NCBI RefSeq assembly: GCF_000473325.1
Contig: NZ_AXBI01000001.1
Span: forward strand, 100,357-164,356
Source: Leisingera caerulea DSM 24564
GTDB lineage: Bacteria > Pseudomonadota > Alphaproteobacteria > Rhodobacterales > Rhodobacteraceae
DNA: 64,000 bases
Direction of reading: 5' to 3'
Shown here: piece by piece, positions 22,228-37,688 of the stretch
Layout: every line of letters begins with the position of its first letter
Numbering within the stretch: position 1 is the stretch's first letter
The notes under the pieces: generated by a model
Database searches by the model: none
What the model was told of the DNA's origin: nothing
The model's input: the letters and a program-made list of their open reading frames with translations, nothing else
Program-made: the position numbers and the translations under genes

Positions 22228-22269
22228 ACAGCATTCTTCGAGATTGATCTCTTCATGACACAAAAGGCT

Positions 22270-23980
22270 GTGAATCGGCGTGCAAAATTGGCTCTGACTC
22301 AGTTTTGGTGCAACTTCGGCCTCCCTCAGATCAGAGCGCTTGAACGAGCCGCGCTTTGAGCAGGTCGATGTTCGCCCTTCCATACATCTGGCGTTTGAGC
22401 GTTTTGAGGCGGTTAATCTGCCCTTCAGTCTGCCCGTTCGACCATGGTTCCCGAAGCGCCGCGGCGACCGCTGCCTGATCTCGCCGCAGCCCGCGGGCAA
22501 AGGCACCGAGCAGCCCGTCTTCCGCTTCATTCAGCCATCCTTCCAGCGCGCCTTCGCGAGCATTGCGTACCATGTCCGTAAACCGGTCGGTCAGCCTTCG
22601 GGCTGTGGCGAGAGCAGGCAGCGAAGCTTCGATCCTTGCGACCTGGATGGCATCCGCCTTGCACAGATGATCCCGGCCCAGGGTCAGGAGGCGGGCAATC
22701 TTGCGCGCGGGCGGCGATTTTTCTGCTCCCGATGGCGCGGCCCGCCCGGCACGGCGCTGGCGCGTGGCCCATTCCCCGACGACGCGGAGGCTGCCCTGGA
22801 AACCATCGGCCCGCAGCCGGCGCCAGATTTCGGCGCCGTTCCGGCAGCCGCCCGCCCATTCCCGCTCCAGCCGCGGCAGCCAAGGAGTCAGACTGCTCTC
22901 ACGGATGCGGAAAACATCCTCGCGTTCCCCGCGCAAAATCTGGCGGACGAGCTGGCGGCTGAGCCCTGTCTGGCGAACGATCCGCCGGATCGGTACGCCA
23001 TCATCAGCCATCTGGCGAACCATCCGGTTGGTTTGCTGGCGGCGCAGATAGCCTTCGTATTGCAGCTTTTCAGCGGCTGTCAGCAGCTTTGGGTCCAGTG
23101 TCTTTGCTCCGATCGCTTTGCGGATGGCAGGCATGTTACGCTGCACAGCGGCCAGGAAAGCTGTGCTCACGTTTTCTAACAGGTGCCAGCGGTCGGCAAC
23201 CTGAACCGCTTTTGGCAAGGCCCGAGAGACGGCACCTCCATAGCCTCCGTTGCGGTCGCGGGCGACGACCTCAATCCCTGGACGGGCCCGCAGCCAGGCC
23301 TCGACCGTGGCCGGTTCCCGGTCCGGAAGGAGATCAATGACCCGGCGCCGCTCCAGATCGCAGATCAAAGTGCCGTATCGCTGCCCCTTTCGCCAAGCCC
23401 AATCGTCGATACCTATAACGCGGAGATCACTGTTTGAGGCCTCAGCCGTGTCCCGGATGCTGCGGAGGAAAGTATCCTTGCTGACCGGCAGCAGGAGCCG
23501 TGCGGCGAGCGCCTGTGCCGGACGCCCGCCGAGTGCCAGGCCGAGGTGCCGGACCAGTCCTTGCAGACGGGAGGTGCGCCGCGCATGTGGCCGGGTCACG
23601 TCCGCCGGAAACCGCTCGGCAAATATCTTGGCTGGGCAATGCAGAGCACGGCAGCGAAAGCGGCGAACCAGCAGGACCAGTTCCACCTTCCGGCCATGCG
23701 CAGGAAGATCGGCAGGCCGTCGGCGGTACCTGCTGTGAACATGGCGTGAAGCCGTGCCGCAGCGCGGGCACGCCGCCGTGGCTTTGGCGGAACGCGAGTG
23801 GATCCGGACCGTGTTCCCAACAAGCTCAACCTGGTCGGCCTTGAGACCTGCTGGCAGGAAATCCCGCCGTGAAAACTGTGACGCCATCGGCAACCTCCTC
23901 CAAAACCTGCCAATATATAGCGCTTAGCAGGTTGGGCTGCACCAAATCTGCTTCAGAGCCAATTTTGCACGCCGATTCAC
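22270..23980 (-). mobile_element. ISL3-family insertion sequence, copy 1
   Basis: About 1.71 kb enclosing one transposase. The ends form a perfect 28-bp inverted repeat (22270-22297 and 23953-23980) containing GGCTCTGA. From the inner GGCTCTGA to the right tip, the sequence is identical to the copy at 35995-37685 (constant offset 13705 bp). No 8-bp target duplication is visible (AAAAGGCT against ATATATCA). The right tip cuts an IS6-type transposase remnant. Confidence 0.9.
22331..23893 (-). CDS. ISL3-family transposase (copy 1)
   Basis: A 520-aa DDE transposase. It has an N-terminal zinc-ribbon (ACPRCGTASRHVHSRYRR), an HTH and an ISL3 core with VIGIDDWAWRKGQRYGTLIC (first Asp), DRNGGYGGAVSRALP and VADRWHLLENV. 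The C-terminal block is PWSNGQTEGQINRLKTLKRQ, then YGRANIDLLKARL. It is full length and open, so probably active, and is identical to the protein at 36036-37598. Confidence 0.95.
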   Translation of the reverse strand: MPMASQFSRRDFLPAGLKADQVELVGNTVRIHSRSAKATAACPRCGTASRHVHSRYRRRPADLPAHGRKVELVLLVRRFRCRALHCPAKIFAERFPADVTRPHARRTSRLQGLVRHLGLALGGRPAQALAARLLLPVSKDTFLRSIRDTAEASNSDLRVIGIDDWAWRKGQRYGTLICDLERRRVIDLLPDREPATVEAWLRARPGIEVVARDRNGGYGGAVSRALPKAVQVADRWHLLENVSTAFLAAVQRNMPAIRKAIGAKTLDPKLLTAAEKLQYEGYLRRQQTNRMVRQMADDGVPIRRIVRQTGLSRQLVRQILRGEREDVFRIRESSLTPWLPRLEREWAGGCRNGAEIWRRLRADGFQGSLRVVGEWATRQRRAGRAAPSGAEKSPPARKIARLLTLGRDHLCKADAIQVARIEASLPALATARRLTDRFTDMVRNAREGALEGWLNEAEDGLLGAFARGLRRDQAAVAAALREPWSNGQTEGQINRLKTLKRQMYGRANIDLLKARLVQAL

Positions 23981-23982
23981 AT

Positions 23983-24335
23983 ATATCAGCCAGGCTTGGA
24001 CCAGAGCATTCAGCACCTACCCCTCCTGATCGACGACCCGCCAAAGCCAATGCTCGCCCCCCCCGATTGACATGACAACATCGTCCAGATGCCAATTTCT
24101 GCCGAGCTGCCAGCTGACCGGCCGCAATTGTTGTTGCGCGTTTTCTTCCTAACTTTTCAGCCTGGGCCCACATTTTCTGATGCGATACGATGATACCCAG
24201 CTTAGCAAGAAGATCCTCTACCATCCGAAGGCTGCGCAGAAACCGGAAGTACAGCCAGACAGCGCAAGCAATCACTTCGGGCGGGCAACGGTTGCCGCGA
24301 CAGAGGCAGGCGTCGGTCATGCCGCCACTTCGCAC
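23983..24335 (-). pseudogene. Degenerate IS6-family transposase, N-terminal remnant
   Basis: The minus-strand frame gives PPEVIACAVWLYFRFLRSLR followed by MVEDLLAKLGIIVSHQKMWA, recognisable as the N-terminal HTH part of an IS6 transposase of another lineage. The reading then degenerates where the DxWHxDE motif should appear. It is cut by the ISL3 right end at 23980. The 45 bp from 24336 to the SDR gene stop show nothing. Confidence 0.65.
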
Positions 24336-24380
24336 TTTTTTGCGGGCAGCCGCATTAACTTTATAGCCCCTCCCGCGACG

Positions 24381-25133
24381 CTACTTCCTCAATGCAGGCA
24401 GCCCCACGCCAGTGGACTGGAAACCGCCGTCCGAAGCGATCGTCTGCCCGGTCACGTAGCTGGCCTTGTCCGAACACAGGAAGACGATCACCGATGCGAT
24501 TTCATCCTCCGACCCGTAGCGGTTCAGGGGGATAGCGTCGTGATAGGCATCGATGATTTCTTGGCTGTGCACGGCCATTGCGAGCTTGGTCCGCACCGGT
24601 CCGGGCGCCACGCAGTTTGCGCGTACACCGTGTTCCCCCAGCTCTGCCGCCTGCTGCTGCGTCAGGTGGATCACCGCTGCCTTCGAGGTGCCATAGGCCA
24701 CCCGCAGGGTTGAGGCTCGCAGCCCCGAGATCGAGGCGATATTGACGATCGCCCCCGCGGTTTCCTTGAGATGCGGGATCGCCGCCTGGCTGCACAGGAA
24801 CACGCCGTCAAGGTTGGTCTCCATCACCCGTCGCCATCGGTCGAAGCCGGTCTCCTCGATAGGTCCGAAATCGGCCACGCCCGCATTGTTCACCAGCGCG
24901 TCGATGCGGCCAAAGTGATCCGCGCATTCCGCCATCATCGCCGTCACCTGATCCGGCTGCGACACATCGCAGACAACCGGCAGCACATTGTCCAGCTGCG
25001 CCGCTTCCGCCATCAGCGCCTCGCCGTCGCGGTCGATCATCGCGACCTGCCGCCCCTCGGCAAGAAACTGTTTGGTGGCGGCCAGCCCGATACCGCGGGC
25101 GGCACCGGTGACAATCACGGTTTTTCTGGTCAT
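24381..25133 (-). CDS. Short-chain dehydrogenase/reductase
   Basis: A 250-aa classical SDR. The NAD(P)-binding motif is VTGAARGIG, followed by NNAGVADFGPIEE, the catalytic Ser in IVNIASISGLRAS and the YGTSK tetrad (Tyr, Lys), ending in CSDKASYVTGQTIASDGGFQ. Asp at the end of beta-2 (AMIDRDGEAL) suggests NAD preference. It is 10 bp downstream of the TRAP permease gene in the same minus-strand operon, so it probably oxidises a hydroxyl of the imported compound or of a CoA intermediate. Confidence 0.92.
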   Translation of the reverse strand: MTRKTVIVTGAARGIGLAATKQFLAEGRQVAMIDRDGEALMAEAAQLDNVLPVVCDVSQPDQVTAMMAECADHFGRIDALVNNAGVADFGPIEETGFDRWRRVMETNLDGVFLCSQAAIPHLKETAGAIVNIASISGLRASTLRVAYGTSKAAVIHLTQQQAAELGEHGVRANCVAPGPVRTKLAMAVHSQEIIDAYHDAIPLNRYGSEDEIASVIVFLCSDKASYVTGQTIASDGGFQSTGVGLPALRK

Positions 25134-25143
25134 GGCAAATTCC

Positions 25144-26481
25144 TCAGTTGGCAGGGCCGGACAGGCCGATGGACAGTTGCGGGAACAGCCCGATCACCGC
25201 CAGCCCCAAGAGGCAGGCCAGCAGGAAGGGCATCGCCCCCCGCGCGACCCGTTCAATGGGCAGCCGGGTGACATTGGCAGCGACATACAGGTTGATGCCG
25301 ACCGGCGGGGTGATCAGCCCGATGGCCAGATTGACCATCACCAGCACCCCGAACCAGACCGGATCCCAGCCCAGTTCGCGGGCCACCGGCATCAGGATCG
25401 GCAGGCAGATGAACATTACCGTGACCGCATCCATGAACATGCCCGCAACCAGCAGGATCAGCATGATCACCAGCAGGATCACCCATTCATTACCGCTCAG
25501 CCCCAAGAGCACCCCGGAATAACTGCCAACCAGATCCTCCACCGTGACCACCCAGCCAAAGAGGCTGGCATAGGCCACTACCAGCATCACCGTGGCAGAG
25601 GATGCGGCAGCATCGCACAGCGAATTGTAGAGCCCGGCAATGGTCAGCGTCCGGTAGACCAGCCCGCCGACCAGCAGCGCATAGACCGTGGCTACCAGCG
25701 CCGCTTCGGTCGGGGTGAAGACACCGGAGTAGATGCCGCCCAGGATCACCACAGGGGTCATCAGCCCCCAGAAACTATCCTTGAACGATAGCCACAGCCG
25801 CAGCGCATAGGGCCGGTCCTCATGCGGCGCCGGGCTAAGCGCCTGCAGCGAGGGCGCATCGCCGCCCGCGCCGCCGCGACGCTTGGCCAGCGGCAGCGTC
25901 AGCAGCATCATTAGTCCCATGAAAAGCCCGGGCAGGATCGCCGCCAGGAACAGGTGCGAGATCGAGGTCTCGGCAATCACCCCGTAGATCACCAGCCCGA
26001 TCGACGGCGGGATGACGATCGACAGCGCGGCGCCGGTGCAAACCAGCCCGGCGGCATAGGCGCGGGGATAGCCGTCTTCCTCCATGCCCTTGATGATCAT
26101 CGGCCCGATCGCTGCGACCGAAGCCGGGCCGGATCCGCTCACCGCGCCCCAGAATAGGCAGACGGCAGTGCCGACGATGCCCATGCCGCCCGGCATCGAG
26201 CCGATCAGCACCCGGAAGAAGCGGATCATCCGCTCGGCAATGCCCAGCGAGCCCATCAGCGTACCCGCCAAGATGAAGAAGGGGATCGCCAGCAGCGAGA
26301 ACTTGGTGATACCGGTGGCGATCAAATCGCCTGCCAGTTCCAGCCCGAAACCGATCTGCCACATGGCGTAAAGCGCTGACAGCCCCAGCGACATCGCCAC
26401 CGGCACCCGCAGCGCCAGCAGCAGGAAGAACAGGATCACCATTTCGGTGCCGGCCGGCAGGCCGGGGATCAGGTCAGACAT
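25144..26481 (-). CDS. dctM: TRAP transporter large permease (DctM type)
   Basis: A 445-aa inner-membrane protein with about 12 hydrophobic segments, the large subunit of a TRAP importer driven by an ion gradient. Family landmarks are IPFFILAGTLMGSLGIAERMIRF, GAVSGSGPASVAAIGPMII and GLITPPVGINLYVAANV. It overlaps the dctQ stop by 8 bp. The complete length and the standard dctP-dctQ-dctM order support a functional three-part transporter. Confidence 0.93.
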   Translation of the reverse strand: MSDLIPGLPAGTEMVILFFLLLALRVPVAMSLGLSALYAMWQIGFGLELAGDLIATGITKFSLLAIPFFILAGTLMGSLGIAERMIRFFRVLIGSMPGGMGIVGTAVCLFWGAVSGSGPASVAAIGPMIIKGMEEDGYPRAYAAGLVCTGAALSIVIPPSIGLVIYGVIAETSISHLFLAAILPGLFMGLMMLLTLPLAKRRGGAGGDAPSLQALSPAPHEDRPYALRLWLSFKDSFWGLMTPVVILGGIYSGVFTPTEAALVATVYALLVGGLVYRTLTIAGLYNSLCDAAASSATVMLVVAYASLFGWVVTVEDLVGSYSGVLLGLSGNEWVILLVIMLILLVAGMFMDAVTVMFICLPILMPVARELGWDPVWFGVLVMVNLAIGLITPPVGINLYVAANVTRLPIERVARGAMPFLLACLLGLAVIGLFPQLSIGLSGPAN

Positions 26482-26989
26482 CGGGGATCACCTCACGCTC
26501 ATCGCCCGTCACCCAGACCTCCCAGGCATGCTGCAGGTAGCGCACCAGCACCAGCGCAAAGCCAATGGGCACCGCGGCCTGGTAGTACCAGGCTGGAACG
26601 CCGAGACCGTAGGAGCGCAGCCCGTTGCTGATCAGGTTCGCCACCGCCTGCCACGAAAACCACGCCGACAGCGCCAGCAGCAGCGCCGCGGCCAGCACCG
26701 ACAGCACGAACACCGCGCGGCGCAGCACCGTCGGCAGCAGGTCGTAAACCAGCCCGACCGCCAGATGCTCGCCGCGCCGTGCCGCAATGGCGGCACCGAA
26801 CACGGTCAGCAGCAGAAAGCCGCTGGTCAGCAGTTCCTCGGTTGCGGCAAGCGAATAGCTGGTGCCGTAGCGCACCACCACATTAGCAAAGCCGAGCAGG
26901 GTCATGGCAAGAAAGATCACCGCGCAGATGATCTTCTCGGCCTCGCGCAGGATGAAGGACATCCCCTCCTCCTTTGGTTTGAAGATCAC
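26474..26989 (-). CDS. dctQ: TRAP transporter small permease (DctQ type)
   Basis: A 171-aa protein with four hydrophobic segments, the small membrane subunit of TRAP systems. Landmarks are VVVRYGTSYSLAATEELLT, GAAIAARRGEHLAVGLVYDLL and the C-terminal GFALVLVRYLQHAWEV. It lies between the binding protein gene (42 bp away) and dctM (8-bp overlap). The N-terminal MSFILREAEKIICAVI may be the true start, eight residues after the longest ATG. Confidence 0.9.
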   Translation of the reverse strand: MIFKPKEEGMSFILREAEKIICAVIFLAMTLLGFANVVVRYGTSYSLAATEELLTSGFLLLTVFGAAIAARRGEHLAVGLVYDLLPTVLRRAVFVLSVLAAALLLALSAWFSWQAVANLISNGLRSYGLGVPAWYYQAAVPIGFALVLVRYLQHAWEVWVTGDEREVIPDV

Positions 26990-27031
26990 TGCGGGCCGTC
27001 CGTATGGGACGCCCCGCAGCCTTGGGCTGAA

Positions 27032-28036
27032 TTATTCGGCGCCGCTGATGGCGTCTTCAAAGGCCTGGACCAGCTCCGGACCGACTTTCGCCGCCCATTC
27101 GTCATAGGCGGGCTGGGTTGCAGCCTTGAAGGCGGCCAGTTCCTCGGCCGTGGGCTCATAGACCTCCATGCCCTTTTCGCGGAGGAAATCGATGCCCGAA
27201 GCCGTCGCATCGCGCGAGATCTGGCGCTGGTAGGCCATTGCCTCATCCGCCGCCGCCTTCAGCTTGGCCTGCATCTCCGCATCATAGCTGTCCCATTTCT
27301 TCTGGCTGATGCCGATGAAGATTGGGTCGTATGAATAGTGCCAGGTTGTCAGGTATTTCTGCACCTCGTAGACCTGCTGCGGGATGATCACCGCGCCGAT
27401 CGGGTTTTCCTGGCCGTCCACCACACCCTGCTGCAGCGCGGTCAGGGTTTCGCTCCACTGCATCTGCTGCGGGTTGGCGCCCAGTGCGTTCATCACGTCG
27501 ATATACATCGGCCCCGCGACCCGCATGTTCAGGCCCTTCATGTCCTCGGGGGTCTTTACCGGGCGGCTGTTGTTGGTCACCTCGCGGAAACCATTCTCGC
27601 CCCAGGCCAGCACGATGATGCCCTTTTCCTTGAGGATGGCTGCCAGCTTTTCCCCCGGTGCACCCTGGGTGGTGGCATCCACCTGGTCATAGTCCGAATA
27701 AAGATAGGGCAGCGAGAATACCGCCATCTCCGGCACGAGCGGGGTGACGTTGATCGCCGAGGTCACCACCAGATCCAGCGCCCCTCGGCCGGTCATCTCG
27801 GCCTGTCGCATCTGGTCGCCGCCTGCCAGCTGGGCATTGGGGAAGATCCGCACGCTGATATCACCGCCGGTCGCATCTGCGATCAGATCGGCGAATTTCT
27901 CCGCTCCCTTGTGCCAGGTGGTGGTGTCGCCGGTGTTGTGCGACAGGCGCAGGGTTTCGGCCGAGGCTGCCGCCGCCATCACCGCCCCCGCCAGGGCGGT
28001 TGCCAGCACAGTTTTGCCCAGTTTCGAAATTGTCAT
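27032..28036 (-). CDS. dctP: TRAP transporter periplasmic substrate-binding protein (DctP type)
   Basis: A 334-aa extracytoplasmic receptor. The ATG at 28036 gives a Sec signal peptide (MTISKLGKTVLATALAGAVM, Ala-rich, cleaved after ASA) and is preceded by a GGGAG-type ribosome site; a longer frame to 28132 lacks this logic. The mature part has ETLRLSHNTGD, MKGLNMRVAGPMYIDVMNAL with the carboxylate-binding Arg and QQGVVDGQENP. DctP receptors mostly bind organic acids, consistent with the acyl-CoA ligases nearby. Confidence 0.92.
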   Translation of the reverse strand: MTISKLGKTVLATALAGAVMAAAASAETLRLSHNTGDTTTWHKGAEKFADLIADATGGDISVRIFPNAQLAGGDQMRQAEMTGRGALDLVVTSAINVTPLVPEMAVFSLPYLYSDYDQVDATTQGAPGEKLAAILKEKGIIVLAWGENGFREVTNNSRPVKTPEDMKGLNMRVAGPMYIDVMNALGANPQQMQWSETLTALQQGVVDGQENPIGAVIIPQQVYEVQKYLTTWHYSYDPIFIGISQKKWDSYDAEMQAKLKAAADEAMAYQRQISRDATASGIDFLREKGMEVYEPTAEELAAFKAATQPAYDEWAAKVGPELVQAFEDAISGAE

Positions 28037-28125
28037 CTTGCTCTCCCAGATTTCGGACCGGTCCAACCCAGCCGCACTGGGCTCCTCTGTCCGGTCATAG
28101 ATCCATATACTGTATCGACTGAAGA

Positions 28126-28140
28126 TCCACATTATGGAAC
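28126..28140. promoter_or_regulatory. Candidate IclR-type operator, site 1
   Basis: TCCACATTATGGAAC, followed by AC, is an imperfect palindrome (TCCAnAT..ATnTGGA-like) in the 226-bp divergent region between dctP and the iclR-type gene. A copy with one mismatch lies at 28255-28269. The repeated motif in a divergent promoter next to an IclR-family gene suggests a regulator-binding site. No footprint data; inferred only. Confidence 0.45.
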
Positions 28141-28254
28141 ACGTTCACTGTCACGATTTTATTGCCACGATCAAGAAGAACTTGCAATATTCCTAAATAC
28201 CCAAATGATGGGCGGCAACTTACGAACCCGGGGACAAGGAGAGGGCCGATCGGG

Positions 28255-28269
28255 TCCACATAATGGAAC
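28255..28269. promoter_or_regulatory. Candidate IclR-type operator, site 2, overlapping the iclR start codon
   Basis: TCCACATAATGGAAC matches the site at 28126 except for one base, and the match extends through the next two bases. It covers the ATG of the IclR-family gene at 28263, a position suited to autorepression. Part of the similarity could be coincidental because the start codon lies inside it. Confidence 0.4.
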
Positions 28270-29081
28270 ACTCTAAGGGCGATAGCAGCGCAGCCGCACT
28301 GGCCGGCAGCCAGACCGTGGACCGGGCACTGGCCTTGCTCGGCATGGTCGGGCGGCGGCCCTCCGAGGGCGCAAGCCTCAGCGAACTGGTCGCCGAAAGC
28401 GGCCTCAACAAGCCCACCGTGCGGCGGCTGCTGCTGGCGCTCATCCGCAACGGGATGGTCGAGCAGAACGAGCAGACGCGGCGCTACTTCCTTGGCGAAG
28501 AAGCTTATATTCTCGGGACTTTTGCCGCCCACCGGCACGGGCTGCTGGAACTCTCCTACGAGCCCCTGGCGCGGCTCGCGGCGGAGACAGGCGATGCGGC
28601 CTTCCTGTCAGTCAGGCGCGGCTTCTCCGCTCTCTGCCTGCACCGCGAGGAGGGCACCTACCCGATCCGCACCTTTGCGCTGATGACCGGGCGGCTGCAC
28701 CCGCTAGGCGTCGGCGCAGGCTCGCTGGCCATGCTCTCCGCCCTGCCTGCTGCAGAGGCGGAGACCGCGCTTGAAGCCAATGCCGCGCTGCTGGCCTCGG
28801 AGTACCCGCAGCTGCCGCCCGGCCGAATCCGAAGCTGCATCGCGGAGACGCGCAGCACCGGCTATGCGCTCAATCCTGGGCTGGTCTTTCCCGATTCGTG
28901 GGGAATCGGCGTGGCACTGCACCGCCCCGACGGCAGCCTGGCCGGCGCCCTGTCGCTGGCCGCCATCGAAAGCCGGATGCAGCCGCCGCGGCGGGCCGAG
29001 CTGGCGGCGCGGCTGCAGGAGGCGGCCCAAAGCATCGAAACGAAACTCGCGCAGCTCTATGCCGCGCGCACCCCCACCTGA
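28263..29081 (+). CDS. IclR-family transcriptional regulator
   Basis: A 272-aa regulator. The N-terminal winged HTH reads VDRALALLGMVGRRPSEGAS, then LSELVAESGLNKPTVRRLLL. The C-terminal effector domain contains RLHPLGVGAGSLAML, the usual IclR ligand-domain block. It is divergent from the TRAP/SDR operon and followed at once by the thiolase gene with a clear AGGAGG site, so it is the likely local regulator responding to the imported acid or its CoA ester. Confidence 0.9.
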   Translation: MEHSKGDSSAAALAGSQTVDRALALLGMVGRRPSEGASLSELVAESGLNKPTVRRLLLALIRNGMVEQNEQTRRYFLGEEAYILGTFAAHRHGLLELSYEPLARLAAETGDAAFLSVRRGFSALCLHREEGTYPIRTFALMTGRLHPLGVGAGSLAMLSALPAAEAETALEANAALLASEYPQLPPGRIRSCIAETRSTGYALNPGLVFPDSWGIGVALHRPDGSLAGALSLAAIESRMQPPRRAELAARLQEAAQSIETKLAQLYAARTPT

Positions 29082-29091
29082 GGAGGACACT

Positions 29092-30261
29092 ATGAGCGAA
29101 GCACAGATCATCGGATGGGGGCATACGCCGTTCGGCAAATCTACGCTACCCGGCACGGAAGAGCTGATGGCCGCTGCTGTCACCGAGGCGCTGGAGCACG
29201 CAGGCATCGCGCCGCAGGACGTCGACGGCATCTTTGCCGGCGTGTTCAACAATGGCTTCTCGCAGCAGGATTTCCAGGCCGCGCTGGTGGCAATGGGCGA
29301 CGAGCGTTTTGCCCACACCCCCGCCACCCGTTTTGAAAACGCCTGCGCCACCGGTTCGGCGGCGCTGCACGGGGCGCTGGATTTCATCGCCGCGGGCCGG
29401 GGCCGGATCGCGCTGGTGGTGGGTGCGGAAAAGATGACCGCCACCCCCACGCCCAAGGTCGGCGACATCCTTCTGGGCGCTTGCTACCGAAATGAAGAGG
29501 CGGAAACAGACGGTGGCTTTGCCGGGCTGTTCGGCCAGATCGCGGCCGGCTATTTCCAGCGCTATGGCGACAAGAGCGAAGAACTTGCGATGATCGCCGC
29601 CAAGAACCACGCCAATGGCATGGCCAACCCACTGGCTCATATGCGCAAGGATTTCGGCACCGCCTTCTGCAACACTGTATCCGACAAGAATCCGCTGGTC
29701 GCAGGCCCGCTGCGGCGCACCGACTGCTCGCTGGTCTCCGACGGAGCGGCGGTACTGGTGCTGGCAGACCCGGAAACCGCGGCCGCCATGCAGCGCGCCA
29801 TCGCCTTCCGCGCCCGCACCCACGCCAATGAGATCATGGCGCTGTCGCGCCGCGACGTGCTGGAATTCGCTGGCGCCCGCCGCGCCTGGGCTGCCGCCTT
29901 TGACCACTCCGGACTGACCCTTGATGACCTGTCGCTGGTGGAGACCCACGACTGCTTCACCATCGCCGAGATGCTCGAATACGAGGCAATGGGCCTGGCC
30001 GAACGCGGCCAGGGCGGCCGGGTGATCCGCGACGGCATCACCGCCAAGGACGGCAAGCTGCCGGTTAATGCTTCCGGCGGGCTTAAATCCAAGGGCCACC
30101 CGATCGGCGCCACTGGCGTGTCGATGCATGTGATGGCAGCAATGCAGCTGATGGAGGAGGCCGAAGACATGCAGATCCCCGGCGCCGAAATCGCCGGCGT
30201 GTTCAACATGGGCGGCGCCGCGGTCGCCAATTATGTATCGATCCTGGAGCGGGTAAAATGA
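29092..30261 (+). CDS. Thiolase (acetyl-CoA acetyltransferase/SCP2-like)
   Basis: A 389-aa thiolase-superfamily enzyme. The nucleophilic Cys lies in RFENACATGSAALHGAL, a second motif is VETHDCFTIAEMLEYEAMG and the C-terminal block is NASGGLKSKGHPIGATG with the catalytic His. The HDCF motif and spacing resemble SCP2-type thiolases acting on bulky beta-ketoacyl-CoAs. The ATG at 29092 follows AGGAGG. Its stop overlaps the acyl-CoA ligase start by 4 bp. It probably cleaves the terminal beta-keto intermediate. Confidence 0.9.
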   Translation: MSEAQIIGWGHTPFGKSTLPGTEELMAAAVTEALEHAGIAPQDVDGIFAGVFNNGFSQQDFQAALVAMGDERFAHTPATRFENACATGSAALHGALDFIAAGRGRIALVVGAEKMTATPTPKVGDILLGACYRNEEAETDGGFAGLFGQIAAGYFQRYGDKSEELAMIAAKNHANGMANPLAHMRKDFGTAFCNTVSDKNPLVAGPLRRTDCSLVSDGAAVLVLADPETAAAMQRAIAFRARTHANEIMALSRRDVLEFAGARRAWAAAFDHSGLTLDDLSLVETHDCFTIAEMLEYEAMGLAERGQGGRVIRDGITAKDGKLPVNASGGLKSKGHPIGATGVSMHVMAAMQLMEEAEDMQIPGAEIAGVFNMGGAAVANYVSILERVK

Positions 30262-31862
30262 GCACCAGCCTGCCCCAAGCCATCACCCCGGTTTCCTCCC
30301 GGGTGATGAACCTGTCCCATCTGCTGACCGAAAGCGCCCGCCGCCACTCCGATGAAACCGGCTTTGTCTGGGGCGACCGGACCTGGAGCTGGGCCGAAAT
30401 GGAGGCTCGCTCCGCTGCCTTTGCCGCCGCCCTGTCGGACCGCTTCGAGCTCGGCAAGGGCGACCGCCTGCTGGTGCAGTCGGCCAACAACAACCAAATG
30501 TTCGAGGCGATGTTCGCCTGCTGGCGTATCGGCGCGATCTGGGTGCCAGCCAACTTCCGCCAATCGCCGGATGAACTAGCCTATCTGGCCGAAAGTTCCG
30601 GTGCCAAGGGCATGCTGTGCGGTGCCGAGTTCCCCGGTCATGCAGCGGCCTGCAAACGGCTGCGCTTTACCATCGGCATCGGTGAAGGTCTTGGAGACAG
30701 CTACGAGACGTTGGTGGCGGAATACCGCGGCCAGGCGCAGACCGCGGTGGCGGTGGACCGGGACGATCCCTGCTGGTTCTTTTTCACCTCCGGCACCACC
30801 GGGCGGCCCAAGGCAGCGGTGCTGACGCATGGCCAGCTCGCCTTTGTCGTGACCAACCACCTCTGCGACCTGATGCCAGGTACGGGCCCCGAAGACGCCT
30901 CAATCGTGGTGGCGCCGCTCAGCCACGGCGCCGGCATCCACCAGCTGGCGCAGGTCGCTCATGGCGCCAAAACGGTCCTGCCCGCCGGGGCGAAGTTCGA
31001 CCCGGACGAGATCTGGGGACTGGTGGCAAAATGGAACGTCAGCAACCTGTTCACCGTGCCGACCATCGTCAAGCTGCTGGTGGAACACCCGTCGGTGCAT
31101 CAGCACGACCATTCCAGCCTGCGCTACATGATCTATGCCGGCGCCCCAATGTACCGCGCCGACCAGGTCCGGGCGCTGCAGGTGCTGGGCCCCAAGCTGG
31201 TGCAGTATTTCGGCCTGGGCGAAGTGACCGGCAACATCACAGTGTTGCCCCCGGGCCATCATTCGGCCGATGATGCGGCCATGCGGATCGGCAGCTGCGG
31301 CTTTGCCCGCACCGGCATGCAGGTACAGATCCAGGACAGCGAGGGACGCGAGGTGGCGCCCGGCGAAACCGGCGAGATCGCGGTGATCGGCCCCGCCGTC
31401 TTTGCCGGCTATTTCAACAACCCCGAAGCCAACGCCAAAAGCTTCCGCAACGGTTGGTTCCTGACCGGCGACCTCGGCCATATGGACGCCCGGGGCTTCG
31501 TCTACCTGACCGGCCGAGCCTCCGACATGTATATCTCCGGCGGCTCCAACATCTACCCGCGCGAGATCGAGGAAAAGATCCTGCAGCACCCGGCAGTGTC
31601 CGAAGCAGCGGTTCTGGGAATCCCGGATCCGGTCTGGGGCGAAATCGGTGTCGCAGTTTGCGTCGCCCGCACGGACGCAAGCATCACCGGCGAGGGGCTG
31701 CTGGAATGGCTTGACGGCAGGCTCGCCCGCTACAAGATGCCCCGCCATGCGGTGTTCTGGGAGGAAATGCCCAAAAGCGCCTACGGCAAGATCACAAAGA
31801 AGATGATCCGCGAACAGCTGATTGCCCGCGGCAGCCTGCCCGAACCGGCGCCGGCACAATGA
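30258..31862 (+). CDS. AMP-forming acyl-CoA synthetase
   Basis: A 534-aa member of the ANL superfamily. The P-loop is FFFTSGTTGRPKAAVLTHG. The hinge region TGDLGHMDARGFVYLTGR is followed by SDMYISGGSNIYPREIEEKI, and the C-terminal catalytic Lys lies in KSAYGKITKKMI. It activates a carboxylic acid to its CoA thioester using ATP. It is coupled by 4-bp overlaps to the thiolase upstream and the PPC-domain gene downstream. The acid is unknown. Confidence 0.9.
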   Translation: MSTSLPQAITPVSSRVMNLSHLLTESARRHSDETGFVWGDRTWSWAEMEARSAAFAAALSDRFELGKGDRLLVQSANNNQMFEAMFACWRIGAIWVPANFRQSPDELAYLAESSGAKGMLCGAEFPGHAAACKRLRFTIGIGEGLGDSYETLVAEYRGQAQTAVAVDRDDPCWFFFTSGTTGRPKAAVLTHGQLAFVVTNHLCDLMPGTGPEDASIVVAPLSHGAGIHQLAQVAHGAKTVLPAGAKFDPDEIWGLVAKWNVSNLFTVPTIVKLLVEHPSVHQHDHSSLRYMIYAGAPMYRADQVRALQVLGPKLVQYFGLGEVTGNITVLPPGHHSADDAAMRIGSCGFARTGMQVQIQDSEGREVAPGETGEIAVIGPAVFAGYFNNPEANAKSFRNGWFLTGDLGHMDARGFVYLTGRASDMYISGGSNIYPREIEEKILQHPAVSEAAVLGIPDPVWGEIGVAVCVARTDASITGEGLLEWLDGRLARYKMPRHAVFWEEMPKSAYGKITKKMIREQLIARGSLPEPAPAQ

Positions 31863-32704
31863 ACACGCTGCAAGAGCTGGCACACCCAGGCCCCCGTGCG
31901 GCAGACCGCTATGCCGCCCTGCCCTGCCGGGCGCAGCCGGTCACACTGCGGCTGGCGGCCGGGCTGCCTTTCGACCAGGCGGTGGTACAGGGATTTGCAG
32001 CGGCCGGGTTTACCGCGGGCTATCTTAGGCTGCCACCTGCGCGGTTTGCCCGGCTTACCTATGTCATCCCAGCGCCTGCCCCCGGCGACGGCCGTGCCGC
32101 TTGGTATAGCAAACCCCATGTGTTGATGGATGCCGCCGCCTCGGAGGCCGGACTGCATCTTGGCAGCAAGGCAGGCGCCCCCTTTCTGCATTGCCACGGG
32201 CTGTGGTGCACGCCGGGCGGGGATCTGCGCATGGGGCATCTCCTGGCGCCGGAATCGGTGCTTCGCGAGGATGTGACCGCAACCGGCTGGGGCCTGTCGG
32301 GTGCCGCGCTGGATGTGGCGCCGGATCCGGAAACCGGCTTTGACCTCTTTGCGCCTGTAGCCGCAGAAGCAGCCGACGAGATCGGCGCAGGCGCCCCTGC
32401 CCTGCTCTGCACCCTGCGGCCAAACGAGGATCCGCATAGCCTGCTGCCGCAGATCGCACGGGGCTTGGCGCCGTTAAGGATCGAAGGGATTGGCAGTCTA
32501 GTCCACACGCGTTTCACCAGCGGCACACTCGACAGCTACGCAACCGAAGTACTGCTGCGTACCAGTTGTGTCGCTGGCGACAGCACCACCCTGAATGCCG
32601 CTTCGGTCGGGTTCGACGGAACTCCCATGACTGGCGTTCTGCGCCCTCATGCAAACCGCATCTGCATCACCGCCGAGTTGCTGCTGATTGAGGCGGAAGC
32701 CTGA
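31859..32704 (+). CDS. PPC/DUF296-like domain protein
   Basis: A 281-aa protein. The central part APFLHCHGLWCTPGGDLRMG followed by HLLAPESVL fits the PPC (plants and prokaryotes conserved, DUF296) pattern of a His-x-His pair and a later Gly-His. The C-terminal half may hold a second, weaker domain (GIGSLVHTRFTSGTLDSYAT). No signal peptide or membrane segment. It is the third gene of the overlapping thiolase-ligase set, so it has a catabolic or accessory role. The assignment rests on a short motif, hence moderate confidence. Confidence 0.6.
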   Translation: MNTLQELAHPGPRAADRYAALPCRAQPVTLRLAAGLPFDQAVVQGFAAAGFTAGYLRLPPARFARLTYVIPAPAPGDGRAAWYSKPHVLMDAAASEAGLHLGSKAGAPFLHCHGLWCTPGGDLRMGHLLAPESVLREDVTATGWGLSGAALDVAPDPETGFDLFAPVAAEAADEIGAGAPALLCTLRPNEDPHSLLPQIARGLAPLRIEGIGSLVHTRFTSGTLDSYATEVLLRTSCVAGDSTTLNAASVGFDGTPMTGVLRPHANRICITAELLLIEAEA

Positions 32705-32708
32705 AAGG

Positions 32709-33517
32709 GGGATTGCCAAGTCGTTTGGGCGTTCTGATCGGGTTAAGCGACCGGCATGAAAAAACCATCCTCACTGCCGCGCCTGAAGGGGTTCCGTTTT
32801 CCTCGCGAGATCGTCGCATATGCGGTCTAGGTCTATCATCGATTTGCCCTCAGCGCGGCGGATGTCGAGGATCTTCTGGCCGAACGCGGTGTAGTCGTCA
32901 GCCGCGAAACCATTCGCCAATGGGTCAACCGCTTTGGCCGCTTCTTCGCCGATTGCATTCGGCGCGACCGGCCCGGCACGGCCGACAAATGGCATCTGGA
33001 CGAAGTGGTCATCCCGATCAACGGCCGGAAATTCTGGCTCTGGCGGGCGGTGGATGCGAAGGGGGATGTCCTCGACATTCTCGTCCAGCCACAGCGGAAT
33101 GCCAAGGCGGCAAGGCGGTTTTTGACAAGGTTGATCGCTCGGTATGGCGAACCCCGCGTCGTGATCACAGATAAATTGCGCAGCTATTTCAGACCGGTCT
33201 GCGATCTTGCGCCGGGCTCGGATCATCGCGCGCACAAAGGCTTGAATAACCGGATTGAAGGATCCCACAGGCCAACCCGAAAACGCGAGAAACTGATGGG
33301 GCGGTTCAAATCGCCCAAGCAGGCTCAAAGGTTTCTAGCAGCCCACGACCAGATCAACACCGTCTTTTGTCCCCGCCGCTATCAACTTTCCGCCGTCTCG
33401 TACCGCCACGCCAGGGCCGATGCTTTCGACCTCTGGAACAGCTATGCTGCCGAAATAAGCGCCTGACGGGCCGAGGTCTCGCCTTTCTCAATCACACCCA
33501 AACAACTTGGCAATCCC
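32709..33517 (+). mobile_element. IS6-family insertion sequence (copy 3)
   Basis: 809 bp bounded by inverted repeats GGGATTGCCAAG at 32709 and CTTGGCAATCCC ending at 33517, the same length as the copy at 3333. It sits 4 bp after the PPC-domain gene and directly before the stump of a flavoprotein gene. The flanks (CTGAAAGG and GGTTGGCG) do not form a target duplication, pointing to an adjacent deletion. Confidence 0.92.
32756..33466 (+). pseudogene. IS6-family transposase interrupted by an amber codon
   Basis: The frame from the ATG at 32756 has the full 236-codon IS6 length. Codon 25 (32828-32830) is TAG where the related copy at 3380 has TGG (CAVWAY against CAV-stop-VY). The remainder is open and keeps the catalytic motifs DKWHLDEVVIPING, EPRVVITDKLRSYF and NRIEGSHRPTRKRE. 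A restart at 33005 (MVIPING) would lack the HTH and first Asp. It is a recent single-base inactivation, or suppressible at low level. Confidence 0.88.
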
Positions 33518-33518
33518 G

Positions 33519-33617: not shown

Positions 33618-33725
33618 AGACAGATTTTTCCGCTTAGCAATTTCGATCGGCACAGACTGCCCGACCGGTGGGCAGCTTCCGCCGAAACGATGTGAATCGC
33701 GCAAGCCGGAAACCTTCCGGGCAGG

Positions 33726-34094
33726 TCAGCTGTGAAAGGCACCTGCGACGTCCTTGGCTTTGACCAGGCTGCGCCCTTCGCAAATTACCGTGCCATCCGG
33801 CGCTGTGCAGCTGGCCCACAGATCCACGAGGTGTTTCTCCGGCCGCAGCCGGGTGATTTCAACCTTGGCTTCCAGCTCGGTGTCCAGCGGAGCGGGCGCC
33901 TTGAAGGCGAGATCCTGTTTGAGATAGTTGGTGTCCGATCCCGGCAGTTCCACCCCAAGAAGATATGAGAACAGCGCCGCGATCAGCGGCTCCGGCACAG
34001 TGCCGACACTGGCACCGCTCAACGCCGCATAAGCCTCAAGGTCTTTCCGGCTGTAGCTGCGTGTGATCCGCGCCGATTGGCCTATCGTCAGCAT
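33726..34094 (-). CDS. MaoC-like hot-dog protein lacking the hydratase Asp/His
   Basis: A 122-aa single hot-dog-fold protein. It starts at MLTIGQSARITRSYSRKDLE, with AYAALSGASVGTVPEPLIAA where catalytic MaoC proteins have SGDxNPIHxD, so the Asp and His of the hydratase motif are absent. The stop/start overlap with the upstream MaoC gene is 7 bp. This pairing of a non-catalytic and a catalytic MaoC subunit resembles the heteromeric ChsH1/ChsH2 hydratase of steroid side-chain degradation. The role is inferred. Confidence 0.75.
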   Translation of the reverse strand: MLTIGQSARITRSYSRKDLEAYAALSGASVGTVPEPLIAALFSYLLGVELPGSDTNYLKQDLAFKAPAPLDTELEAKVEITRLRPEKHLVDLWASCTAPDGTVICEGRSLVKAKDVAGAFHS

Positions 34095-34444
34095 GTGATC
34101 TCTGCCTCTCCAACCAAACACTCCGCGCCATCCGCCACCCGCGTGACCCGCATCATCACGCGGCCCGGCGACTTTTGCGCGATCCGCAAGCTGAGTTCCT
34201 CGCCTTCAAAAGCCGGGTTCGGAAACATCAGGCTTTGGCTGACCTGAGTGATTTCAGCGTCATGCCGCTTGAGCATCCCCCAAAGCTTGGAATAGATCAG
34301 CATCCCGTGGCTCACCGTGCGTCCAAAACCTGTTCCGGCGCAGAACGCGGGATCCACATGGATCGCATTGTCATCGCCCGACACTTTTGCGAAGGTATCA
34401 AACTCCGCTTGCGCTGGGGTCCAGTGTTCCTGAAGCTCAATCAT
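34088..34444 (-). CDS. MaoC-like enoyl-CoA hydratase subunit
   Basis: A 118-aa hot-dog protein with the complete (R)-hydratase motif KVSGDDNAIHVDPAFCAGTG, followed by TVSHGMLIYSKLW. The start at 34444 (MIELQEHWTPAQ) was preferred over 34510 because homology begins there, and it overlaps the acyl-CoA ligase stop by 8 bp. It likely hydrates an enoyl-CoA, possibly as a heteromer with the next gene product. Confidence 0.85.
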   Translation of the reverse strand: MIELQEHWTPAQAEFDTFAKVSGDDNAIHVDPAFCAGTGFGRTVSHGMLIYSKLWGMLKRHDAEITQVSQSLMFPNPAFEGEELSLRIAQKSPGRVMMRVTRVADGAECLVGEAEITC

Positions 34445-35927
34445 CGCTGAATTCCTCCCGCAGCTTGGGTTTGCAGACTTTGCCTGCAGCCGTGCGCGGG
34501 AAATCTTCAACGATCCTCACATGTGCAGGGACCTTGTACCCGGCAATCCGTTCCCGGCACCACGGGCGCAGGGTTTCAGGCTCAACGGTCTGGCCCGGGC
34601 GCAGCATCACGAAAGCCGCGCCTGCTTCCCCCCACATCTCATCCGGCACGCCGACAACCGCGGATTCAAGAATGGCAGGGTGGGCATTCAGCACCCGCTC
34701 GACTTCGGCGGGATGAACGTTTTCGCCGCCCGAGATGAACATGTCCTTGATGCGGTCGACGATGTAATAATAACCATCCGCGTCGCGCCGCGCGACATCG
34801 CCGGTGGCCAGCCAGCCATCCCCGGTAAGAGCCTTCTCCGTCGCTTCCGGGTTGCCGAAATATCCAGGCGTGACCCCTGGTCCGCGAACCTGCAGTTCGC
34901 CCGCCCCTTCGGTCCCATCCGCCACCCCGGCCAGACGAACGTCCACAAGGCTCTGTGATCTTCCGACGGATCCGATTTTCTCTGCCGCATTGGCCGGATC
35001 CATCAGGAAAACGGTCGGACCGGTTTCGGTCATCCCCATGCCGTTCAGCACATTAGCCCCCATTGAGCCGAAGAAGCGGATCAGCGGTTCCGGCAGCGGC
35101 GCCCCGCCGCAGCCGCAGCGGATCGAAGACCAATCCAGGTCTTCGATGCCCGGCATCAGCGACAGGGCCTGGTACACCGCCGGCACCGCGAAGAACTGGT
35201 TGATCCGCCCGGATGCCAGCAGGCCCTGGACCGCTTCGGCCTCGAATTTCGGCAGGATGGCTGAGCTGCCGCCGGTCAGGAAAACCGGCAAGGTGTACAG
35301 GTTGATACCTGCGGTGTGAAACAACGGCAGAAAGCACACCGCCCGGTCCGTTAATGCAATATCGATGGCCTGCCCGATGTTCACGGTATTGGCCCAGGCC
35401 ATGCGGGCCGTTTGGATGACCGCCTTGGGCAAGCCGGTGGTGCCGGAGGTGAACAGCAGGTACCACGGCCGGTCAGACGGCACGGGCGCCTGCAATGCCG
35501 GGCCGCCTTCCCTGATCCAGCCGCCAAGATCGTCCTCGATTGTCAGGACCGGCGCGCCAGCGCCCGCCGCGGCCTCGCGGGCAGTGTCCTGAAACTCCGC
35601 GTCCGTCAGCAGCAGTGAGATACCGGCCTGATCCAGGGTTTCCACCAATTCCGCTGCCGGCTGCCGCCAGTTCAGCGGGCACAAGATGACCCCGGTCTTC
35701 TGGCAGGCAAACAGCGCAATGAAGAACTCGACCCGGTTCTGGCAAATAATGGCAACGCGGTCGCCTTCGGCCAAGTTCCGCGCCCGGAAACCCGCCGCGA
35801 CGGCATTCGCCGCATCATTGATCTGGGCAAAGCTCCAGCCGCTGCCGGTCGCTGTATCGTGAAAGGCCAAGGCGCCGGGCGACATTTCCGCCCGTTTTGC
35901 CGCCATATCCGGGATCAAATCAAACAT
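34437..35927 (-). CDS. AMP-forming acyl-CoA synthetase (second)
   Basis: A 496-aa ANL-superfamily ligase. The P-loop is YLLFTSGTTGLPKAVIQTAR. TGDVARRDADGYYYIVDR is followed by IKDMFISGGENVHPAEVERV, and the C-terminal Lys lies in PRTAAGKVCKPKLREEF. It is first in a minus-strand operon with the two MaoC genes. Its presence beside another ligase at 30.3 kb suggests that two different acids, for example the parent compound and a ring or side-chain fragment, are activated. It begins 47 bp from the ISL3 copy 2 end. Confidence 0.9.
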   Translation of the reverse strand: MFDLIPDMAAKRAEMSPGALAFHDTATGSGWSFAQINDAANAVAAGFRARNLAEGDRVAIICQNRVEFFIALFACQKTGVILCPLNWRQPAAELVETLDQAGISLLLTDAEFQDTAREAAAGAGAPVLTIEDDLGGWIREGGPALQAPVPSDRPWYLLFTSGTTGLPKAVIQTARMAWANTVNIGQAIDIALTDRAVCFLPLFHTAGINLYTLPVFLTGGSSAILPKFEAEAVQGLLASGRINQFFAVPAVYQALSLMPGIEDLDWSSIRCGCGGAPLPEPLIRFFGSMGANVLNGMGMTETGPTVFLMDPANAAEKIGSVGRSQSLVDVRLAGVADGTEGAGELQVRGPGVTPGYFGNPEATEKALTGDGWLATGDVARRDADGYYYIVDRIKDMFISGGENVHPAEVERVLNAHPAILESAVVGVPDEMWGEAGAAFVMLRPGQTVEPETLRPWCRERIAGYKVPAHVRIVEDFPRTAAGKVCKPKLREEFSDD

Positions 35928-35974
35928 CGCACTTATCCGGTTGAATGAAGAAATTCTGCCATGCGCGACAGGGT

Positions 35975-37685
35975 GTCAATGAGCGTTCAAAACTGGCTCT
36001 GACTCAGTTTTGGTGCAACTTCGGCCTCCCTCAGATCAGAGCGCTTGAACGAGCCGCGCTTTGAGCAGGTCGATGTTCGCCCTTCCATACATCTGGCGTT
36101 TGAGCGTTTTGAGGCGGTTAATCTGCCCTTCAGTCTGCCCGTTCGACCATGGTTCCCGAAGCGCCGCGGCGACCGCTGCCTGATCTCGCCGCAGCCCGCG
36201 GGCAAAGGCACCGAGCAGCCCGTCTTCCGCTTCATTCAGCCATCCTTCCAGCGCGCCTTCGCGAGCATTGCGTACCATGTCCGTAAACCGGTCGGTCAGC
36301 CTTCGGGCTGTGGCGAGAGCAGGCAGCGAAGCTTCGATCCTTGCGACCTGGATGGCATCCGCCTTGCACAGATGATCCCGGCCCAGGGTCAGGAGGCGGG
36401 CAATCTTGCGCGCGGGCGGCGATTTTTCTGCTCCCGATGGCGCGGCCCGCCCGGCACGGCGCTGGCGCGTGGCCCATTCCCCGACGACGCGGAGGCTGCC
36501 CTGGAAACCATCGGCCCGCAGCCGGCGCCAGATTTCGGCGCCGTTCCGGCAGCCGCCCGCCCATTCCCGCTCCAGCCGCGGCAGCCAAGGAGTCAGACTG
36601 CTCTCACGGATGCGGAAAACATCCTCGCGTTCCCCGCGCAAAATCTGGCGGACGAGCTGGCGGCTGAGCCCTGTCTGGCGAACGATCCGCCGGATCGGTA
36701 CGCCATCATCAGCCATCTGGCGAACCATCCGGTTGGTTTGCTGGCGGCGCAGATAGCCTTCGTATTGCAGCTTTTCAGCGGCTGTCAGCAGCTTTGGGTC
36801 CAGTGTCTTTGCTCCGATCGCTTTGCGGATGGCAGGCATGTTACGCTGCACAGCGGCCAGGAAAGCTGTGCTCACGTTTTCTAACAGGTGCCAGCGGTCG
36901 GCAACCTGAACCGCTTTTGGCAAGGCCCGAGAGACGGCACCTCCATAGCCTCCGTTGCGGTCGCGGGCGACGACCTCAATCCCTGGACGGGCCCGCAGCC
37001 AGGCCTCGACCGTGGCCGGTTCCCGGTCCGGAAGGAGATCAATGACCCGGCGCCGCTCCAGATCGCAGATCAAAGTGCCGTATCGCTGCCCCTTTCGCCA
37101 AGCCCAATCGTCGATACCTATAACGCGGAGATCACTGTTTGAGGCCTCAGCCGTGTCCCGGATGCTGCGGAGGAAAGTATCCTTGCTGACCGGCAGCAGG
37201 AGCCGTGCGGCGAGCGCCTGTGCCGGACGCCCGCCGAGTGCCAGGCCGAGGTGCCGGACCAGTCCTTGCAGACGGGAGGTGCGCCGCGCATGTGGCCGGG
37301 TCACGTCCGCCGGAAACCGCTCGGCAAATATCTTGGCTGGGCAATGCAGAGCACGGCAGCGAAAGCGGCGAACCAGCAGGACCAGTTCCACCTTCCGGCC
37401 ATGCGCAGGAAGATCGGCAGGCCGTCGGCGGTACCTGCTGTGAACATGGCGTGAAGCCGTGCCGCAGCGCGGGCACGCCGCCGTGGCTTTGGCGGAACGC
37501 GAGTGGATCCGGACCGTGTTCCCAACAAGCTCAACCTGGTCGGCCTTGAGACCTGCTGGCAGGAAATCCCGCCGTGAAAACTGTGACGCCATCGGCAACC
37601 TCCTCCAAAACCTGCCAATATATAGCGCTTAGCAGGTTGGGCTGCACCAAATCTGCTTCAGAGCCAATTTTGCACGCCGATTCAC
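35975..37685 (-). mobile_element. ISL3-family insertion sequence, copy 2
   Basis: Identical to copy 1 from the inner GGCTCTGA (35995) to the right tip (37685). The left 28-bp terminus matches the right terminus at only 23 of 28 positions, unlike copy 1 where both are identical. It lies in the same orientation as copy 1, so the two form direct repeats. No 8-bp target duplication (GACAGGGT against ACTGATGC). The right tip abuts an IS110 tail. Confidence 0.9.
36036..37598 (-). CDS. ISL3-family transposase (copy 2)
   Basis: 520 aa, identical in protein sequence to the copy at 22331-23893, with the same zinc-ribbon, catalytic core and C-terminal WSNGQTEGQINRLKTLKRQ block. Identity extends through the non-coding flanks, indicating recent duplication or conversion. 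Confidence 0.95.
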   Translation of the reverse strand: MPMASQFSRRDFLPAGLKADQVELVGNTVRIHSRSAKATAACPRCGTASRHVHSRYRRRPADLPAHGRKVELVLLVRRFRCRALHCPAKIFAERFPADVTRPHARRTSRLQGLVRHLGLALGGRPAQALAARLLLPVSKDTFLRSIRDTAEASNSDLRVIGIDDWAWRKGQRYGTLICDLERRRVIDLLPDREPATVEAWLRARPGIEVVARDRNGGYGGAVSRALPKAVQVADRWHLLENVSTAFLAAVQRNMPAIRKAIGAKTLDPKLLTAAEKLQYEGYLRRQQTNRMVRQMADDGVPIRRIVRQTGLSRQLVRQILRGEREDVFRIRESSLTPWLPRLEREWAGGCRNGAEIWRRLRADGFQGSLRVVGEWATRQRRAGRAAPSGAEKSPPARKIARLLTLGRDHLCKADAIQVARIEASLPALATARRLTDRFTDMVRNAREGALEGWLNEAEDGLLGAFARGLRRDQAAVAAALREPWSNGQTEGQINRLKTLKRQMYGRANIDLLKARLVQAL

Positions 37686-37688
37686 ACT

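Follow-up and report, generated by a model that had tools for sequence, protein, structure and literature searches.

Insertion sequences of the ISL3 family have a transposase with a zinc ribbon and an ISL3 DDE domain, and GGCTCT-like inverted ends; their sites are generally AT-rich, and an 8-bp target duplication is typical of the family, though not defining. In IS21, which is characterised by IstA and IstB, a tandem helix-turn-helix (HTH) of IstA reads the terminal repeats. Insertion into the terminal repeats of another transposon family is found in IS4321 and IS5075 (IS1111 group), which reportedly target the terminal inverted repeats of the Tn21 family, and IS1111/IS110 types are said to be guided by an RNA. 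IS30 is attracted to its own ends, and its intermediates reportedly join the inverted repeats of one or two copies. The present analysis concerns an ISL3-family element that occurs twice, in direct orientation around a 12-kb catabolic block, in a 64,000-nucleotide stretch of Leisingera caerulea DSM 24564 (the window; positions 100357-164356 of contig C1, 270,810 bp, in a genome of 5.34 Mb and 9 contigs). Its sequence makes it highly probable that the copies are members of an ISL3 clade that has captured an IstA-type domain and that targets IS21 elements and hollows them out; most probably the pair does not form the ends of a single large transposon.

The element has the zinc ribbon, the DDE domain and the inverted ends of canonical ISL3, and as judged from its transposase it is a divergent ISL3 clade. 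It differs from canonical members in about 110 extra IstA-type residues in the catalytic region, in target duplications of 7 bp (11 of 69 loci) instead of 8 bp, and in its position at IS21 end repeats instead of generally AT-rich sites. The tandem HTH is shared with IS21, and the repeats around the element are IS21 ends, but the ISL3 core contains no istA and istB; IS21 is the target and not the element. As in IS4321/IS5075, the insertion is in the terminal repeats of another family; those elements have a DEDD transposase, whereas the transposase here is of the DDE type (PF01610) and carries a domain related to the target's own transposase. IS30 involves its own repeats, in contrast to the ends of an unrelated family involved here. 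In the literature covered (titles and abstract openings, with ISfinder and most subscription journals outside that coverage), there was no report of an ISL3 element targeting IS21 ends.

Two identical cores and their transposase

Self-comparison of the window gives unbroken identity between 22289-23981 and 35994-37686, and the 1671-bp ISL3 cores within these intervals are identical letter for letter and directly oriented, which bears out the two same-sequence, same-orientation ISL3 copies, at an offset of 13,705 bp, of an earlier note on this DNA. For an identical repeat of 1671 bp, coincidence is no concern. The genome has five identical cores, of which C1 carries three and the 3.5-Mb contig C7 the other two, and an ISL3 family search of this genome, with all 8 candidates scored, returned the five cores and one relic. 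A relic of the C-terminal part of an ISL3 transposase (model positions 219-368) lies at window 4332-4871. The features of the two window copies are listed below; L1 and R1 denote end repeats of the C5 IS21, an apparently intact element of which more is said in the next section.

22290..23960, reverse strand: ISL3-family core, copy 1; 1671 bp, GGCTCTGAC...TCAGAGCC, identical to the four other cores of the genome
35995..37665, reverse strand: ISL3-family core, copy 2; identical to copy 1
22331..23887, reverse strand: transposase of copy 1; 518 aa, with ISL3 zinc ribbon, a two-stretch ISL3 DDE match and the inserted IstA-type domain
36036..37592, reverse strand: transposase of copy 2; identical, in the same core letters
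22739..23023, reverse strand: IstA-like tandem HTH of copy 1; residues ~289-383, coordinates computed from the protein numbering
36444..36728, reverse strand: IstA-like tandem HTH of copy 2; same domain as in copy 1
22269..22289, forward strand: IS21-end repeat left of copy 1; TGTGAATCGGCGTGCAAAATT, equal to right-end repeat R1 of the C5 IS21
23961..23981, reverse strand: IS21-end repeat right of copy 1; R1 type, inward-pointing
35974..35994, forward strand: IS21-end repeat left of copy 2; TGTCAATGAGCGTTCAAAACT, equal to left-end repeat L1 of the C5 IS21
37666..37686, reverse strand: IS21-end repeat right of copy 2; R1 type, inward-pointing

The protein scores 357.3 bits (residues 29-515) against the ISL3 transposase model NF033550, whose cut-off is 180 bits, and it exceeds the cut-offs of PF01610 (DDE_Tnp_ISL3) and PF14690. 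The core termini, GGCTCTGACTCAG... and GGCTCTGAAGCAG..., are inverted ends of the ISL3 type (GGCTCT or similar), and the transposase alone fills the 1671-bp core, in which no istB was found. Residues 291-383 match positions 2-104 of the 294 in the IS21 transposase model NF033546 (E = 5.9e-8), at a score (32.6 bits against a cut-off of 160) too low for an IS21-family transposase. The inserted domain also matches the IstA of its own genome in pairwise comparison (E = 2e-5), and residues 9-99 of the IstA chains 8b4h/8q4d correspond to profile positions 289-375 (E = 8e-4 to 9e-4). On these sequence matches the insert qualifies as an IstA tandem HTH; the structure match is middling by the VIA scores.

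IS21-type repeats at the core edges

Identity from copy to copy ends at the core edge, except for the right ends common to copies 1-3. Directly outside the cores lie about 21 bp (or two tandem repeats) that vary between copies, follow roughly the pattern TGTSAATCGGCGTSCAAAANT and point inward on both sides, and the five identical cores are enclosed by five different IS21-type end-repeat pairs, here called shells. The outermost left 20 bp of copies 1 and 2 (22269-22288 and 35974-35993) have 5 mismatches; this difference, together with that of all flanks, speaks against a simple assembly duplication error. The C5 IS21 (2471 bp, with open istA of 528 aa, open istB of 243 aa and a 7-bp duplication, CTCTGAG) supplies exact counterparts: the left shell of copy 3 equals its L1 and L2 over 45/45 bp, and the right repeats of copies 1-3 equal its R1. 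The shell of copy 4 matches an IS21 of the relative G002 (left 50/54 bp, right 21/21 bp), in which istA and istB matches are present, but the istA frames are broken. To judge from these matches, the ISL3 core occupies the place expected for the IS21 genes.

Since each copy has a different IS21-type shell pair, the copies look like separate targeted insertions. Moreover, copies 2 and 3 entered one type of IS21 left end at different repeats, copy 2 at L1 and copy 3 at L2, which is a pattern of independent insertions and not of copies of a composite unit. The alternative raised in the earlier note, two separate insertions, is therefore supported by the finding that each copy in the genome lies in its own pair of IS21-type end repeats.

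No direct repeat flanks copy 1, copy 2 or the pair (outer flanks CACAAAAGGC / CTGATGCTTC, inner flanks TATATCAGCC / CGCGACAGGG), and this flank comparison agrees with the same note's statement that the outer ends of the pair show no target duplication; none is readable at any of the five cores. The bases outside the three type-A shells are mutually unmatched by eye, so the original IS21 duplications cannot be re-paired. For copy 5, a possible empty site is suggested by flanks that lie close together in G014 and G010, which have about 80 bp extra on the left; a possible duplication there reaches 5/7 at best. Three further relatives, L157-L159, share the left flank of this copy and lack its right flank near the junction. 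The left and right flanks of copy 4 match at different places in relatives. Near the outer shell edges of copy 3 (G000:C1:27638-29308) there are sequences that are inverted copies of each other, CCTTCAG / CTGAAGG by eye. A short sequence by the left flank of the copy 5 shell (G000:C7 near 2359100) recurs often across the genus and is perhaps REP-like (repetitive extragenic palindromic).

A scan with one genome per species returned at least 79 distinct loci among the best matches, mostly in Alphaproteobacteria by record title. In these 79 listed loci, CGGC stands at -14 in 97 of 144 flanks (mean 1.45 at other offsets) and TGT at -21 in 69 of 144 (mean 1.6 elsewhere). By a loose criterion, which for CGGC allows one mismatch at the fixed position and is passed by about 5% of flanks by chance, an IS21-type repeat is found at one core edge or both in 73 of the 79 loci (CGGC type in 66, TTTCCA type in 7); one locus, L131, has no usable flank. 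The element lies at the inner edge of the repeat, between a 7-base spacer (e.g. CAAAATT) and GACCC, and simple insertions duplicate the spacer. The exact 7-bp duplication at the core edge is present in 11 of 69 loci, against 0.8% of mismatched flank pairs; 10 of the 79 were excluded, both core ends with 60 bp of flank not being present. The duplicated bases precede GACCC in nine of the 11 and GCCCC or GGCCC in two (by eye). Five further loci have 6-bp core-edge matches, apparently by palindromic coincidence.

Among 74 loci, the five own copies included, repeats point inward on both sides in 58, on one side in 16 and on neither side in none, although the classifier counts any flank without a GGGGTC-like interior as a repeat side, so that odd flanks (L128) join the two-sided group. 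Many copies consist of an IS21 repeat, the ISL3 core and an inverted IS21 repeat, without istAB. Five of the 16 one-sided insertions (L078, L098, L110, L112, L140) have istA or istB towards the interior. Of 47 two-sided shells, seven are flanked on the outside by an exact 7-9-bp duplication, with a control value of 0.0009. These 47 are the ones with TGT on both sides among the 58 two-sided rows, and they include copies 1, 2, 3 and 5 and a locus of the relative G015; copy 4 is unscorable.

Two surveyed places have an arrangement of their own. L094 and L095 (Bradyrhizobium japonicum SZCCT0153) lie on one contig, about 25 kb apart and in opposite orientation; their downstream flanks agree over the 46 bp shown and their upstream flanks differ, possibly a trace of inversion or duplication. 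At L012, on a plasmid of Mesorhizobium NZP2077, a tandem pair of ISL3 genes lies amid a row of tyrosine recombinase genes, and a 42-bp end is 97.6% identical to the end of copy 1.

The repeats might instead belong to the mobile unit, the outer 21 bp being its true ends, so that IS21 ends and ISL3 core would transpose together by the ISL3 transposase or by IstAB in trans. This would suit the 44-bp inverted repeat of copy 1 (93%), which includes the outer 21 bp, the Mesorhizobium end just mentioned and the seven shells with IS21-type duplications outside. Such a hybrid unit is nevertheless improbable, considering that identical cores have differing outer ends, that one IS21 left end was entered at both L1 and L2, and that the duplication lies directly at the core edge in 11 one-sided insertions. 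In addition, the IstA of IS5376 needs two complete repeats per end according to PMC10122671, whereas each side of copies 1 and 2 has a single repeat.

Repeat-type change, relatives and a proposed route

TTTCCA-type repeats (TGTTGATTTCCACTGAGAATT before GACCC, and variants) occur at seven listed loci. Six of these are represented in the tree described below and form one group (L114, L115, L118, L120, L135, L138), and among the tree proteins this repeat type is limited to the one subclade. The repeats adjoin istA in L239 and L242, which identifies them as IS21 ends. In viral-contig loci with a TTTCCA repeat, an IstA match was found in two of six; class-wide, the TTTCCA pattern was found in one genome out of 337, where no IstA match adjoined it.

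In IstA, HTH-2 contacts a conserved block, CS1, and HTH-1 contacts CS2, as described in PMC10122671. In a comparison of 59 proteins (six of the TTTCCA type and 53 of the CGGC type), R368 of the HTH-2 helix (53/53 of the CGGC type) is replaced by G in 6/6 of the TTTCCA type, and E372 (53/53) by Q or H. The helix also differs at 366, 367, 375 and 379, and the stretch before it at 348, 352, 357 and 358. In the HTH-1 recognition helix (311-318), position 316 alone passes the same threshold, with differences at 301 and 323 nearby. GACCC is unchanged across the repeat types. The direction of change fits a reading of CS1 by HTH-2.

For comparison, family searches supplied a control set of 31 loci, namely 23 domain-less ISL3 elements, seven domain carriers and L171; for L202, L205 and L220, the domain-less status is taken from match length only. 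Duplications of exactly 8 bp, at AT-rich sites, are found in five of the 23 domain-less controls (L203, L205, L207, L212, L216). Others have 9 bp (L200), 6 bp (L199) or 5 bp (L202), and the rest 0-1 bp or no usable end pair. Where ends were found, no IS21 repeat was seen by eye at the ends of domain-less controls.

The tree comprises 88 transposases with the domain columns removed. Its input was 63 of the 79 listed loci (with L122 dropped by the stop/length filter), the own copy and 25 chosen family-search loci; family-search loci with stops, fragments and duplicates were left out. In it, 69 domain carriers (six of them from family searches) and L171 are separate from the 18 other domain-less proteins, the grouping being taken without branch supports. 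One identical pair of carriers, L169/L191, has different core ends, GGTCCATCC....

Taken together, these sequences make it likely that the clade preys on IS21, entering the terminal repeats, deleting the genes, keeping the shells and tracking a change of repeat through the second HTH. A number of observations weigh against this. The AlphaFold model of the transposase is weak overall, with a predicted local distance difference test (pLDDT) of 63.6 and a predicted template modelling score (pTM) of 0.38, and a Foldseek search with it gave no match at E 0.001; the model is too weak for a claim about the whole-protein fold. Neither repeat type was recognised on either side in five of the 79 listed loci (L089, L100, L112, L128, L130), yet istAB adjoins L112. 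The DNA searched at E 1e-8 yielded neither istA nor istB for 11 of the 16 one-sided insertions, and IS21 genes lie nearby in three of 53 two-sided public loci (L076, L102, L139). The target type changed once, in a single subclade, and the IstA proteins of two IS21 types (L239 and L242 included) do not mirror the switched residues.

The relatives add further points of this kind. The carriers are not an independent sample: 62 of the 69 were retrieved through their similarity to this transposase. L171 (G155:C21; 397 aa) is domain-less, yet it lies between IS21-type repeats and is nested among carriers; it may have lost the domain secondarily and been moved in trans, a movement made possible by the full-length relative, L194, in the same genome. 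L204, a deep-branching carrier, has no clear IS21 repeat, and the pair L169/L191 (G111), likewise on a deep branch, has an IS21-like flank, TGTCAGTGCCGATTGGATACT, at one side of L169 only and none at L191.

The last such point concerns the shells: 40 of the 47 two-sided ones, including copies 1, 2, 3 and 5, have no IS21-type duplication, and most are thus not simple in-place replacements. This is also what would be expected if gene conversion or homologous recombination among ISL3 and IS21 copies had made most shells, with targeting a minor factor, and the same is suggested by a copy-2 right flank unrelated to the chromosomal continuation of the left flank and by one IS21 type common to the three C1 copies. 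Exchange of this kind, however, leaves unexplained both the fixed junction beside GACCC across many IS21 repeat variants and the 11 insertions with 7-bp duplications. As the main source of shells it is unlikely; as an additional process, conversion or recombination probably does act.

Under predation on IS21, the captured domain would bind the IS21 repeats and bring the catalytic core of ISL3 to the spacer that lies between the contacts of the two HTHs. Loss of the IS21 interior would follow, either by adjacent deletion, in which the inner ISL3 end attacks the opposite IS21 end, or by recombination between two direct ISL3 copies, one per IS21 end. As a rough weighting, adjacent deletion is given an even chance, recombination a distinctly smaller one, and one-step replacement the smallest of the three. 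Adjacent deletion and recombination both fit, in that both predict a repeat-ISL3-repeat structure with the IS21 duplication kept and would leave no core with interior on both sides, which matches the survey, where none was seen. Shells without a duplication would need the ends of two different IS21 insertions, brought together by deletion between IS21 copies or by later recombination. Copies 1 and 2 of the window would each represent a separate case of entry into IS21 and loss of its interior, their shells being of a single IS21 type and their replicon rearranged.

If this reading is true, a DDE transposase has been retargeted in nature by a foreign tandem HTH slotted into its catalytic region, and its target is the very family that the inserted domain resembles. 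It would be a concrete, testable case of one transposon preying on the widespread IS21 family, and would explain the differing outer ends and the missing normal duplication at the identical ISL3 copies here. It would also be a warning, in that pairs of such copies will mimic composite transposons. That the repeat type and residues of HTH-2 have changed together in nature suggests a route to the study of protein-guided choice of insertion sites.

The catabolic block between the copies

The genes that the earlier note lists between copies 1 and 2 are present; in the present analysis they are SDR (short-chain dehydrogenase/reductase), the TRAP (tripartite ATP-independent periplasmic) transporter components DctM and DctP, IclR, thiolase, two AMP-binding ligases and one MaoC. 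They fall into two modules, listed here with the relics beside them.

24381..32704, no strand assigned: first catabolic module; SDR, TRAP permeases and DctP, IclR, thiolase, AMP-binding ligase, hypothetical
32708..33516, forward strand: relic between the modules, presumably IS6-like from its sequence; resembles pieces beside copy 1
33726..35927, reverse strand: second module; 131-aa open reading frame (ORF), MaoC, AMP-binding ligase; homology stops at the left shell of copy 2
37687..38003, forward strand: relic abutting the right shell of copy 2, presumably IS110-like from its sequence; on the other side of copy 2 lies the ligase promoter region

The gene order of the first module is that of a plasmid of Alloyangia pacifica (82.9% over 61% of the block), and the 23.4 kb examined there carry no annotated transposase. 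The second module is 88% identical to C7:2038884-2041131 of the same genome and 83-84% identical to loci in G016, G010 and G014; with the MaoC/ligase module on C1 and C7 differing to this extent, the C1 copy may come from a related species. In Nitratireductor, a comparable cluster is followed by genes for an enoyl-CoA hydratase and for TetR, and the 12 kb examined there contain no annotated transposase. Pfam gave no match at E 1e-5 for the 131-aa ORF beside MaoC, nor for a 281-aa ORF. On these comparisons, the block is a mosaic of two clusters that are annotated elsewhere without adjoining ISL3. A search of relatives for the 12-kb block, as the earlier note had proposed, succeeded for the separate modules and not for the whole, which was found neither among 39 matching plasmid records (best coverage 61%) nor in 60 relatives (at most four candidate stretches per genome scored).

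It is against this background that the composite transposon of the earlier note, in which two direct ISL3 copies would have moved the 12-kb block as one unit, has to be judged. Two identical direct copies do bracket the block, as such a transposon would have them. No duplication, however, brackets the pair, the outer left ends differ, copy 1 has an IS21-type shell of its own, as has copy 2, three further single ISL3 copies are present in the genome, and the five cores lie in different shells. The block itself is a mosaic with the presumably IS6-like relic inside, and its first module stands in Alloyangia without an annotated transposase. The composite is thus not supported, and is very improbable. 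Homologous recombination between the two direct copies might still excise or duplicate the 13,705 bp.

At the left edge of copy 2 the chromosomal homologue of the second module continues (..GCAACAGGG, then TTTCC..), and the plasmid switches to the IS21 shell at that very base. This break in homology on the left, and the different relic on the right, indicate a rearrangement at the copy-2 junction. On either side of copy 1 there is an IS6-like piece; the two match the relic of the block at 88% over 422 bp and at 84% over 37 bp, and another comparison, of the relic left of copy 1, gives 89% over 399 nt. Related pieces are collinear about 430 bp apart in G019, and copy 1 may therefore sit in one such element. 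Further IS21 remains on C1 are the fragments of istB (the IS21 ATPase gene) at window 48-597 and 2017-2304.

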